Shown here in pieces: positions 21,476 through 25,000 of a stretch of DNA of 64,000 bases. The notes below the pieces were generated by a model that saw only the letters and a list, made by a program, of their open reading frames with translations, searched no databases and was not told where the DNA came from. Origin of the DNA: Rhodoflexus caldus (GTDB lineage Bacteria; Bacteroidota; Bacteroidia; Cytophagales; Thermoflexibacteraceae); the NCBI RefSeq assembly GCF_021206925.1, contig NZ_JAJPRF010000001.1, positions 124,001 through 188,000 of the forward strand. The letters are read 5' to 3'. A program made the translations under genes and the position numbers. The first letter of the stretch is position 1. Each line of letters opens with the position of its first letter.

Positions 21476-21557
21476 GCGCAACCAAATGACAATTCGGATT
21501 TCGGATTTTAAAAAAAAGAACGTAAAAAAATTTGCCCAACTGTTGGAAGCAACATCC

Positions 21558-21947
21558 ATGAATCAACGATTGGTACAGATAGCCCTCGTCGTACGCGATT
21601 ATGACGAGGCTATTGATTTTTATACCCGCAAACTGGGGTTTGAATTGATAGAAGATACCCTCATGAGTGAAACCAAGCGCTGGGTAGTGGTTGCCCCTCG
21701 CGGTGAAGGAGGCTGTCGGTTATTGCTTGCCAAAGCAACCAATGAGGAACAAACCTCACGCATTGGCAATCAAACGGGCGGGCGGGTGTTTCTGTTTCTG
21801 CATACAGACAACTTTGACCGCGATTACCAACGGCTTATCAGTGAAAACATCACCATCGTTCGCCCTCAATCGGAGGAAAGCTACGGCAAAGTAGCTGTTT
21901 TTGCCGACCTCTACGGCAACCTTTGGGATTTGATAGAACCGCGCTGA
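21558..21947 (+). CDS. Single-domain VOC (glyoxalase-like) protein
   Basis: A 129-residue cytosolic VOC protein: LVQIALVVRDYDEAIDFYTR at the start, KLGFELIEDT next, and the closing VFADLYGNLWDLIEP, where the last Glu is a typical metal ligand. The in-frame ATG at 21486 would add 24 Lys-rich residues not seen in the family, so I start at 21558. Reaction unknown. Its 3' end overlaps the convergent retropepsin-like gene by 37 bp. Confidence 0.83.
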   Translation: MNQRLVQIALVVRDYDEAIDFYTRKLGFELIEDTLMSETKRWVVVAPRGEGGCRLLLAKATNEEQTSRIGNQTGGRVFLFLHTDNFDRDYQRLISENITIVRPQSEESYGKVAVFADLYGNLWDLIEPR

Positions 21948-22891
21948 GGAGCGTGCAGCCAAATCATCCGCTGCCGCCAGTCAATCGTGAGGAGGTAGCG
22001 GCGCAGAAATGCCAGCCCTAACAGTCCGTATCTGCTTTGCGAATGTATCACGGGCAAGTCATCAAAAGTATGCAACCCCTCCATGCGCAGCGAATCCATC
22101 ACCAAGCCCTGCCCTGATGTAACGCCGTGTATGCTGTAAGGCAATTGCATTGGCTGCAATTCATTGTCATACATGAAAGACGTATGATTGGCTGTAAATT
22201 CTGCATCCAGTAAAATGCCACCCCAAAAGCCTGTACTCAATTGCATCACCAATTGATAAGGAAAGCGGTTAAACTGCACCTGCCATTTGGGGCTGCGGTA
22301 AATCGTGCGGTTAAAAGGCAGCGCGATTGTTTGCGGCAAACCGATGAACTTTTCGGGCGAAGGCGCAATAATGACGCGGTTATTTTCCCAGTCAAAATGC
22401 CAAGTGCGGTGCTGCATCAGGTTTGCACCTATAACCCCCTGAATGCCTTTTTGTTGCAGTGCGGTTTGCAGGCCGTCCGTCAGCAGGCCGCCGCCTATGC
22501 CTTGAAAGCTGCCGTTACCCATGTGCAGCGGCGGCATAACGCCAAAACTTTCTGCCAGCGTATCTCCCGCCGCATTAATGAGTGGAATGCGGATATGGTT
22601 GTCCGATACCTGTGCACCTGCCCATAAACAAGGCAAGGCCGTATCAATCAGCCAATGCTGCCGCTGATTGCCTGCCCTGATGCTAACGATGGGAAATACG
22701 GAATCGGTAAACAAGAGCGTATCATAACCGACGTGGTTGGTTGCTCCTGCCCGCATGAGTTGATGCAACTGTTCATGGCGCGTTTGACAGCCGCTCAACC
22801 AAAAAAACAAGGCGGCTAAAAGTGCCGCTCCGATGTATTTTCTACCGATAAGAAGGTACAACTTTTGGCGGCAGTTTGTGATTGAGCTCAT
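21911..22891 (-). CDS. Retropepsin-like lipoprotein (predicted aspartic-protease fold)
   Basis: The product of about 326 aa starts with a membrane-anchoring signal ending in the lipobox FFWLSGC. It has a pattern that recalls single-domain aspartic proteases of Bacteroidota: QHWLIDTALPCLW near the first active-site position, an IQGVIGANLMQ turn, and a second half ending RYGLLGLAFLRRYLLTIDW. The active-site triplet reads DTA rather than the usual DTG, so activity is uncertain. The start is ambiguous: ATG at 22891, TTG at 22927 and TTG at 22861 all overlap the end of the Cas6-like gene, by 86, 50 or 20 bp. The overlap implies coupled translation with that gene. Confidence 0.6.
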   Translation of the reverse strand: MSSITNCRQKLYLLIGRKYIGAALLAALFFWLSGCQTRHEQLHQLMRAGATNHVGYDTLLFTDSVFPIVSIRAGNQRQHWLIDTALPCLWAGAQVSDNHIRIPLINAAGDTLAESFGVMPPLHMGNGSFQGIGGGLLTDGLQTALQQKGIQGVIGANLMQHRTWHFDWENNRVIIAPSPEKFIGLPQTIALPFNRTIYRSPKWQVQFNRFPYQLVMQLSTGFWGGILLDAEFTANHTSFMYDNELQPMQLPYSIHGVTSGQGLVMDSLRMEGLHTFDDLPVIHSQSRYGLLGLAFLRRYLLTIDWRQRMIWLHAPQRGSIKSQRLP

Positions 22892-23675
22892 AAGGCATAC
22901 TGCGCAACGTAGGGTCTGTATTGGCAAGGTCTAACATGCCATAGCCGGCAGTAGTGGCTTCTCCCAAGCCGCAGAAAAAGACAAATTCCTGCACTTTGGG
23001 GTCAGCATAGAGCGAGAAAGGCATGGTATAGCCTCTCACTTCGGTTTTTTTATGATGATTGGGCAGCGTATAAATTCTGGCAAATTTTTTTGATTCTTTG
23101 GTAATTTTGGAGAGATAATATTGATCAGGGACAATCTGAAACTTGAAAAAACTTGCTACTTGCTCGGGCGTGTACAAGCCCGAACGCTCAATGCGATTCA
23201 TGGTTGATTCGTAGAGCAAGTCGGAGAACTGGTCGGTATCAGGCATAATGAACTCCTTCGCCCCCATTTCGTTACCGGCCTGCATGGTGCAAACCAACGG
23301 CGAAAGACAGATGTACTTCATTTCCTCGCTAAACTCGGGGGTATGCTCGCGTTCCACCATTTCGGGCGACAAAATCAGCCCACCTACCTCAATAAACTGA
23401 TTACTGAACAGTTGTTGCAGGAAGTAATCCATAAATTGTTGGTCTACACACGCAAACACCAGCGTTACACGGCTTGAAAAATATTGAAGCCCGTTGCGGC
23501 TGACTTTGGTTTGCCCCTTGATGCCGGAGAAGTTGTAGAACTCACAAGCAGGATAGTGGCTACCTGCACTGCCCGATGTTAAATCTTTAATCATAGCAGC
23601 CAGCAGGTGCTGATGATGGAAAGGCAATACCCCGCCTTTGTTTCTTAGCTTAAAAATAATTCTCGTCCGTAACAC
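22842..23675 (-). CDS. cas6: Orphan Cas6-like CRISPR endoribonuclease
   Basis: The 277-residue protein has the Cas6 layout. An N-terminal ferredoxin-like strand LRTRIIFKL is followed by VLPFHHQHLLAAMI, and then by HYPACEFYNFSGIKG, where His40 and Lys53 sit about where Cas6 catalytic residues are found. The C-terminus has the glycine-rich loop CGLGEATTAGYGM (235-247), matching GxGxxxxxGxG. Cas6 cuts CRISPR precursor RNA in the repeat. No other cas gene and no CRISPR array is visible in the window, so it is an orphan here. It begins with GTG and overlaps the next gene. A repurposed RNA-processing role is possible. Confidence 0.8.
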   Translation of the reverse strand: MLRTRIIFKLRNKGGVLPFHHQHLLAAMIKDLTSGSAGSHYPACEFYNFSGIKGQTKVSRNGLQYFSSRVTLVFACVDQQFMDYFLQQLFSNQFIEVGGLILSPEMVEREHTPEFSEEMKYICLSPLVCTMQAGNEMGAKEFIMPDTDQFSDLLYESTMNRIERSGLYTPEQVASFFKFQIVPDQYYLSKITKESKKFARIYTLPNHHKKTEVRGYTMPFSLYADPKVQEFVFFCGLGEATTAGYGMLDLANTDPTLRSMPYELNHKLPPKVVPSYR

Positions 23676-23802: not shown

Positions 23803-24015
23803 TCACGGGACGGGGTCGTACCCACTTCCGCCCCAAGGGTGACAACGCCCGATGCGCTTCAGCCCTAACCAAAAACCTTTCAGTATCCCGTGCTTTTCCA
23901 CCGCCTGCACCATATACTCCGAGCAGGTAGGCGTAAACCGACAAGCAGCCGGATACAGCGGGCTGATAGCTGCCTGATAAACCCTCAACAAAAAAATAAA
24001 CGAACGCCTGAGCAT
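23803..24015 (-). CDS. yidD: Membrane protein insertion efficiency factor
   Basis: A 70-residue YidD protein: [37 protein letters not shown] and [17 protein letters not shown] are the family's conserved blocks, with the invariant cysteines. It is a small membrane-associated protein thought to help YidC-mediated insertion. The ATG at 24015 gives the normal length; a longer frame to 24126 adds a hydrophobic-basic N-terminus outside the family. Its start lies 94 bp from the divergent sucD start. The usual rnpA/yidC neighbours are absent. Confidence 0.95.
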
Positions 24016-24075
24016 GAGAGATAAAAGTAAGAGATTTATCTGCAAGATTCGTGCGCAAATGCAACCCGAAAACCC

Positions 24076-24083
24076 TATTTTTG
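24076..24083 (+). promoter_or_regulatory. -7 box upstream of sucD
   Basis: TATTTTTG matches TAnnTTTG exactly and would start transcription near 24089, about 21 bases before the sucD ATG at 24110. No clear -33 element was found. It supports the 24110 start over the upstream in-frame ATG at 24014. Confidence 0.4.
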
Positions 24084-24109
24084 CCGCAAACTTAATCAAT
24101 GCCGTCCTA

Positions 24110-25000
24110 ATGAGCGTTTTAGTCAATAAATCTTCTCGTATTATCGTACAAGGGTTTACCGGTTCGGAAGGAACCTTTCATGCCACACAAATGATTGAGT
24201 ATGGCAAAGAGTTTAACGGTGCACAGGTAGTTGGCGGCGTTCGCCCCGGCAAAGGTGGTACTACCCACTTAGACCTGCCCGTTTTTGACACTGTGAAAGA
24301 TGCCGTAGCAGCCACAGGCGCAAACGTATCCATCATCTTTGTTCCTCCCGCAGGTGCTGCCAATGCCATTTTGGAAGCAGCCGAAGGCGGTATTGAATTG
24401 GTGGTATGTATCACCGAAGGTATCCCTGTCAAAGATATGATGAAGGTAAAGCACGCCCTGAAAGGCAGCAAAACCCGCCTGATTGGCCCTAACTGCCCGG
24501 GTGTTATCAGCGCAGGACAGGCGAAAGTAGGCATCATGCCGGGCTTTATCTTCAAAGAAGGCCGCGTAGGCATTGTTTCTAAATCAGGTACTTTGACCTA
24601 CGAAGCAGCCGACCAAGTAGCCAAAGCAGGTTTAGGCATCTCTACCGCTATCGGTATCGGTGGCGACCCCATCATTGGCACTACCACCAAAGAAGCCGTT
24701 GAACTGCTGATGAACGACCCCGACACAGATGCCATCGTGATGATTGGCGAAATCGGCGGACAATTGGAAGCCGACGCTGCCCGCTGGATTAAGGCAGACG
24801 GCAACCGCAAGCCCGTTATCGGCTTCATTGCGGGACAGACCGCACCCAAAGGCCGACGCATGGGTCATGCCGGAGCTATCATCGGCGGAGACGACGACAC
24901 TGCCGCCGCCAAAATGCGCATCATGCGCGAAAACGGCATCACCGTTGTGGAGTCGCCCGCGCTGATAGGCGAAACCGTTGCCAAAGTTTTAGGAAAATAA
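24110..25000 (+). CDS. sucD: Succinate-CoA ligase, alpha subunit
   Basis: The alpha subunit of succinyl-CoA synthetase interconverts succinyl-CoA and succinate with nucleotide triphosphate in the TCA cycle. It has the CoA-binding Rossmann start [20 protein letters not shown], the [20 protein letters not shown] block, and the phospho-histidine loop [13 protein letters not shown] near residue 250. The 296-residue product from the ATG at 24110 has normal length; the longer frame from 24014 would add 32 unrelated residues. The beta-subunit gene sucC is not in this window. A terminator follows. Confidence 0.97.

Follow-up and report, generated by a model that had tools for sequence, protein, structure and literature searches.

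A Cas6-superfamily clade of Cytophagales and other Bacteroidia with a proposed role outside CRISPR

Cas6 is regarded as a dedicated enzyme of clustered regularly interspaced short palindromic repeats (CRISPR) systems, in which it cuts precursor CRISPR RNA (pre-crRNA) 8 nt upstream of the spacer, and matches to Cas6 profiles are used to call CRISPR systems. Outside CRISPR loci, solo-Cas4 is reportedly a precedent for a Cas-family protein. Stand-alone cas1 genes (casposons) are another (PMC6452270), and the exaptation of CRISPR parts has already been published (PMC8730458 and PMC6452270). Here, we describe a solo Cas6-family gene at positions 22842-23675 (minus strand) of a 64,000-nucleotide stretch of the Rhodoflexus caldus genome (NZ_JAJPRF010000001.1, positions 124,001 to 188,000; G000:C1:124001-188000 in our numbering), hereafter called the window. 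Its product is homologous to Cas6 yet fails the tested features of a CRISPR Cas6, namely the catalytic triad, the locus and the co-occurrence with effectors. The clade to which it belongs is near-universal in several Cytophagales families, is kept where class 1 CRISPR genes are undetected, and is linked to ychF beyond the order as well.

Cas6 fold and catalytic residues

The open reading frame (ORF) encodes a true member of the Cas6 superfamily, as established by profiles and fold. The predicted protein has 277 residues and starts at a GTG (23675), which is followed by a TTA codon and has no in-frame ATG upstream. A reading of the sequence without database searches (the sequence-only reading) had called a Cas6-like protein here from its glycine-rich loop, and this loop, CGLGEATTAGYG, is present as claimed at 22938-22973 (minus strand, counted from codons) with Gly235, 237, 243 and 245. 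The hidden Markov model comparison and structure prediction proposed as checks in that reading both agree with the assignment. The protein scores above the curated cut-offs of Pfam PF01881 (E 3.4e-19, 70.3 bits, cut-off 23) and NCBIfam TIGR01877 (E 1.2e-18, 68.3 bits, cut-off 58.65), and it also matches the PADLOC Cas6b profile (2.1e-31) and, by sequence, one solved Cas6 (5yi6, 2.8e-6). Furthermore, PF01881 was matched by 7/7 other solo members scanned.

The AlphaFold model (predicted local distance difference test score, pLDDT, 90.3; predicted template modelling score 0.87) has a complete Cas6 fold, and the model together with the full-length match to Cas6-type structures predicts two tandem RRM/ferredoxin-like domains. 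The best structural match is 3qjj (Z 24.7, 229 residues aligned, root-mean-square deviation 2.4), tied with 3ufc (24.6) and 5yi6 (24.4) and followed by the Pyrococcus Cas6 3i4h (23.9). The entry 3qjj (PH0350), presumably noncatalytic, is titled "One RAMP protein binding different RNA substrates", and 3ufc is titled "Cas6-related gene from Pyrococcus furiosus".

The catalytic triad of PfuCas6 is Y31/H46/K52 (PMC3652601). In our alignment, a catalytic-type Tyr occurs in 0/161 solo proteins, the His position is a gap in 161/161, and the Lys/Arg position before LFTFS holds K in 11/161, with R outside the ten commonest residues. By comparison, 7/7 other Cas6 proteins from the same order carry the Tyr (..IY..), the His (..LH..) and K/R, where Tyr and His were assigned to PfuCas6 Tyr31/His46 by motif and alignment. 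Six of these proteins have cas3 next to their genes, and the gene of the seventh (G012) sits at the end of a contig, with RAMP genes about 18 kb away; an eighth ordinary Cas6, in G006, has the same Tyr/His motifs and is not part of the 7/7 count. The solo clade keeps the four loop glycines in 161/161 proteins and has invariant residues of its own (S49, K52, Y186, R199, P218 and D248), together with a nearly invariant H20 (159/161). Residues are numbered from the second residue of the window protein (276-residue numbering), and the first residue of every solo protein was written as M in the residue alignment and tree. Judging from the aligned sequences, the Tyr/His/Lys catalytic set of ordinary Cas6 is lost in the solo clade, and this loss argues against the usual cleavage chemistry, short of proof. 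An active site of His40 and Lys53, as put forward in the sequence-only reading, was not supported: His40 varies among relatives, and Lys53 (our K52), although invariant in 161/161 proteins, falls at a different alignment position from the catalytic Lys/Arg of ordinary Cas6.

As a separate observation, three loci with cas3 contain, next to the gene for the canonical Cas6, another gene for a shorter Cas6-like protein (L135:6898-7554, L136:4866-5549 and L137:3462-4130). Where the canonical Cas6 has Tyr, these shorter proteins have His, and they are gapped where it has His.

Distribution of the solo gene and its relation to CRISPR

Search alignments were built from nine members of the family (A1) and from 33 (A2). 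Among 291 genomes of the order, the A1 search gave matches at E <=1e-8 in 144, of which 143 were strong (<=2.0e-60); the remaining genome, G192 (E 4.0e-9), was removed, leaving 143 solo carriers. Eight order genomes had a second match. The seven of these that were listed (that of G217 was not) comprise a fragment in G010 and six weak matches (1e-9 to 1e-14), each with a cas3-type gene about 1-6 kb away that scores above the cas3 cut-off in five cases and below it in G102. These six are ordinary CRISPR Cas6 genes, and those systems therefore own a Cas6. A search of 395 genomes of the class added 18 carriers outside the order (2.6e-75 to 7.0e-53), giving 161 solo proteins in all. The phylum search (375 genomes) returned 17 matches outside the class, all weak (about 1e-20 to 1e-26); the one inspected (L232) is of the ordinary Cas6 type, having both Tyr and His, the 16 others were left unread, and an extension of the solo gene beyond the class was not accepted. 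A scan of genome contigs recovered a single relative, from an uncultured member of the Cytophagales.

Within the order, the solo gene is nearly universal in some families. It occurs in f19 (39/41), f15 (18/19), f2 (11/11), f4 (8/8), f20 (10/10), f22 (8/8), f18 (16/18), f14 (12/15), f8 (9/11) and f1 (9/13). It was found in 0/45 genomes of f10, 0/45 of f12, 0/21 of f21 and 0/15 of f7, and eight more families of 1-3 genomes each include three carriers in all. A tree of 83 of the 161 solo proteins and 10 other Cas6-like proteins, midpoint-rooted and given with a program warning of long branches, separates the two sets with support of 98/97 and a branch of 1.58. Families f19, f4, f2, f15, f18, f22, f81, f43 and f60 each form a single group, and f1, f14, f20 and f8 each need two changes on the tree. 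In the window's genus, the ratio of non-synonymous to synonymous substitution rates (dN/dS) of cas6 is 0.091 (G000/G008) and 0.045 (G008/G006) in the two of six pairs that could be computed, the other four being saturated. In the genomes sampled, Cytophagales and some other Bacteroidia seem to inherit the solo gene vertically as a chromosomal gene, each carrier genome having one strong copy.

The start codon of the solo gene is often not ATG. In 106/143 order genomes it is GTG or TTG, or TTA with the ORF opening before it, with no in-frame ATG upstream, and three families have a non-ATG start throughout (39/39, 8/8 and 16/16). The start is ATG in 18/18 class genomes outside the order, and the neighbouring ychF starts with ATG in 70/77 cases. 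A non-ATG start of solo cas6 may indicate low or regulated translation.

The association with CRISPR was assessed from three family searches (cas1, RAMP and cas3) using best-scored candidates and including fragmented genomes, and from an array scan of the window and the solo loci with a finder that needs three exact 18-base words. It had been claimed that no other cas gene or repeat array lies in the 64 kb. The scan found no repeat array in the window, and the cas1 and RAMP matches of the window genome lie outside it; the search across the window covered no further cas families. The 167 solo loci scanned, in which some genomes are represented twice, gave a single array-like match, three copies within a coding region of L019, and among the matches listed the commonest immediate neighbours of solo cas6 include no cas genes.

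Among the 291 order genomes, RAMP genes were present in 32, cas3 above cut-off in 61 and cas1 above cut-off in 111. A co-occurrence of the solo gene with class 1 CRISPR was considered and rejected: the signal seen in pooled genomes vanishes once these are stratified by family, and a weak cas1 excess stays. Stratified by family, there is no association of the solo gene with RAMP (24 observed vs 25.3 expected, z -1.0), with cas3 (31 vs 30.9, z 0.06) or with either of the two (46 vs 45.4). All three of cas1, RAMP and cas3 were undetected in 62/143 carriers, including four single-contig genomes, and both RAMP and cas3 in 97/143. Additionally, the solo gene is missing from 32/78 genomes with RAMP or cas3, and families f10 and f12 (0/45 each) include 27 genomes with class 1 genes. 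In the genomes sampled, the occurrence of the solo gene does not depend on type I or type III systems.

The window genome has CRISPR loci of its own, with two cas1 genes, both outside the window. A type III-B Cmr locus on the same contig (G000:C1:3764-28005; L014, L015), nearly 120 kb from the window gene, encodes Cmr1, Cas10, Cmr3, 4, 5 and 6, Card1, a CARF_RelE-type effector, Csx20, Cas6b, Cas1 and Cas2 and has a 108-repeat array, in which the reverse complement of the repeat ends in ATTGCGAC, which we take to be a Cas6-type handle. Its own Cas6b (PF17955, 3.4e-24; PF17262, 1.7e-23) also occurs in the type III regions of three other species of the genus (91.7, 74.8 and 90.0% identical). Because the locus has this Cas6b, the window gene is a second Cas6-family gene and not the missing processing enzyme of the array, and service of this array as its main role was rejected. 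The second CRISPR locus (G000:C5:103000-113900; L016, L017) comprises cas1, an 83-repeat array and a 1272-aa ORF, presumably Cas9-like.

Within the type III-B locus, it was also observed that Cas2 bears an N-terminal extension of about 150 residues and that DUF1016, AbiEii-like and what we assume to be GxxExxY-type genes are interspersed among the cmr genes. In G008, the Card1-like gene is split into three ORFs (L234:1869-2946).

Neighbouring genes

The ychF gene lies immediately upstream of solo cas6, on the same strand in all cases, in 78/161 genomes (72/143 of the order and 6/18 of the class outside it), with a gap of 35-390 bp. These and other neighbour counts are minimum values, as some contigs run out close to the gene; that of G010, for example, stops 42 bp past cas6. 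A profile match (PF06071, PF01926) confirmed the ychF copy in L100, and the other copies were called by their similarity to this one. Of the commonest neighbour groups listed, only that of ychF spans order and class genomes alike. A convergent conserved gene follows cas6 (57/161 genomes) in L100 and other f19/f15 loci, and a further gene, presumably DUF3276/PUR-like, lies upstream of ychF in 10/29 loci; a wider ychF-cas6 block is therefore conserved in part of the Cytophagales.

In the window's family, ychF was next to cas6 in 0/9 carriers. Upstream of the window gene, on the same strand, lies a gene at 23803-24126 (minus strand), which we take to be yidD and which is upstream of cas6 in 5/9 carriers of the family. 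Downstream, a lipoprotein-like gene on the minus strand occupies 21911-22861 from a TTG start at 22861, or 21911-22927 from the TTG at 22927. The overlap with cas6 described in the sequence-only reading was confirmed, being 20 bp from the first start and 86 bp from the second. The overlap (1-86 bp) and the gene order are kept in 4/4 members of the genus. The idea that the Cas6-like gene is tied to a lipoprotein, which a survey of relatives was to check, stands at this level and was not seen beyond it: the lipoprotein gene was downstream of cas6 in 0/4 further carriers in the family for which sequence past cas6 is available, and it is the downstream neighbour in 4/161 carriers overall, some contigs ending at cas6. 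It evolves faster than cas6 (dN/dS 0.11-0.23). Its product had no match in Pfam or PADLOC and only a chance-level match in NCBIfam (0.081, far below cut-off), and its structure model reaches a pLDDT of only 31. An IDT(A/G)LPCL motif conserved in 4/4 genus members is compatible with a retropepsin-like protein. In the window's genus, the overlap is probably incidental. At its other end, the lipoprotein gene converges with an ORF at 21486-21947, which we assume to be glyoxalase-like, and the 3' ends overlap by 37 bp.

Proposed role and comparison with known systems

We propose, with a probability of roughly 60%, that the solo protein is a CRISPR-independent member of the Cas6 superfamily with a housekeeping RNA-binding role, probably non-cleaving and perhaps tied to translation. 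The fold of Cas6 and its glycine-rich loop are retained, as are conserved basic residues, and the catalytic set is lost; the protein would bind a specific cellular RNA in the Cas6 cleft with the canonical cleavage chemistry absent. Rather than mature crRNA, this small RNA-binding protein, perhaps only weakly translated from its GTG or TTG start, may have a regulatory function, possibly with YchF, a ribosome-associated ATPase, in the control of translation or stress. In the window's genus, the gene lies apart from ychF and is overlapped by the lipoprotein gene. A translation-related target is the leading guess because YchF of E. coli is in contact with IF3 and the small ribosomal subunit and controls the translation of leaderless mRNA (PMC8138138). 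The earlier suggestion that an orphan Cas6 may point to a different RNA target gains support from the finding of an order-wide clade that appears unlinked to type I/III genes. More tentatively, an early domestication in Bacteroidia could have made Cas6 a sequence-specific RNA-binding factor that does not cleave and that works with YchF at the ribosome, where it might, for example, bind a leader or rRNA element and tune translation under stress.

Several observations weigh against the proposed housekeeping, non-cleaving role. The loss of Tyr and His is no proof of inactivity because the Sulfolobus Cas6 cleaves without a catalytic His (PMC3652601), and the solo clade keeps its own invariant K52, S49, Y186 and R199. 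In pooled genomes, RAMP genes are associated with the solo gene (24/32 RAMP genomes, Fisher p 0.002), and RAMP or cas3 is borderline (p 0.048), with no association for cas3 alone (p 0.78); after stratification, cas1 still shows a slight excess (77 vs 73.5, z 2.0), and the presence of at least one of the three genes gives z 1.6. Adjacent ychF was not seen in 83/161 carriers, including the window genome, with some contigs ending nearby. A promoter-like TAnnTTTG, which we take to be a Bacteroidetes promoter, lies between ychF and cas6 in one family, where a box of this type occurs in most of 21 leaders. Given this box and the gap of 35-390 bp, the two genes need not share one transcript. A conserved leader or start-codon hairpin sought in the 21 leaders gave no signal, and no Rfam match was found in seven solo loci.

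The invariant residues would also suit an active endoribonuclease with a remade, histidine-free site, which would mature or degrade a specific cellular RNA and not pre-crRNA. With H20 in 159/161 proteins beside K52, S49, Y186 and R199, and with Cas6 catalytic residues known to vary (PMC3727216) and to dispense with His in Sulfolobus (PMC3652601), this has some basis; we nevertheless find it doubtful, as the canonical Tyr and His are lost together in 161/161 proteins and the Lys/Arg position is unconserved. The closest folds include the Cas6-related archaeal 3qjj and 3ufc, yet the active-type 5yi6 and 3i4h are tied or nearly tied with them. Service in trans to arrays elsewhere, either as accessory or backup crRNA processing or as binding of repeat RNA without cleavage, had been considered in the sequence-only reading, and a distant array, with ATTGCGAC ending the reverse complement of its repeat, does exist in the window genome. 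The pooled RAMP association (p 0.002) and the weak stratified cas1 association (z 2.0) point the same way, as does the description of cas6 as a fixed "attractor" gene amid exchanged effector modules (PMC6452270). This reading is nonetheless improbable: the type III loci of 4/4 genus members own a Cas6b, six second, weak Cas6 matches have a cas3-type gene at about 1-6 kb, cas1, RAMP and cas3 were all undetected in 62/143 carriers, 32/78 genomes with RAMP or cas3 lack the solo gene, no association with type I/III is seen within families, and the 167 solo loci yielded only the three copies in L019.

The 1-86 bp overlap and constant gene order in 4/4 genus members might instead mark a two-gene system of the solo Cas6 and the lipoprotein. 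With the lipoprotein gene downstream in 4/161 carriers and evolving faster (dN/dS 0.11-0.23), this is very improbable. It is hardly credible that the gene was left over from a lost CRISPR-Cas locus and is decaying. Lost catalytic residues, housekeeping neighbours and no array nearby would fit this reading, but the two pairs measured show purifying selection, the 161 proteins share invariant residues, and retention within families is near-universal.

If the CRISPR-independent housekeeping role were confirmed, it would represent a CRISPR-to-housekeeping exaptation of an RNA-binding protein and would offer a natural handle on the poorly understood YchF; an early domestication, if true, would have turned a crRNA-processing protein into a core translation regulator. 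Furthermore, "Cas6 present" could then not mean "CRISPR present" in the annotation of Bacteroidota.

Compared with Cas6 (PF01881/TIGR01877), the window protein shares the common fold (Z 23-25 with the five closest entries, over 217-231 aligned residues) and the glycine-rich loop, and it scores above curated cut-offs. The solo clade differs from CRISPR Cas6 in having no canonical Tyr/His and no conserved Lys/Arg, in the absence of an array or cas gene seen alongside, in its apparent vertical inheritance and in its lack of association with type I or III genes within families. Solo-Cas4, as reported, and the stand-alone cas1 of casposons resemble it as Cas-family proteins outside CRISPR loci; these precedents concern Cas4 and cas1, however, and neither a description of a solo Cas6 clade nor a comparable Cas6 family was found in the literature searched, which did not reach subscription papers and preprints. 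The Sulfolobus solfataricus Cas6 is similar in having no catalytic His and conserved basic residues in its place; it processes crRNA (PMC3652601), whereas the solo clade also occurs without detected class 1 CRISPR genes. PH0350 (3qjj) and 3ufc are the closest solved folds, tied with 5yi6, and together with 5yi6 they are the top profile matches. Both are archaeal and 17-19% identical, whereas the linkage to ychF and the order-wide retention belong to the bacterial clade.

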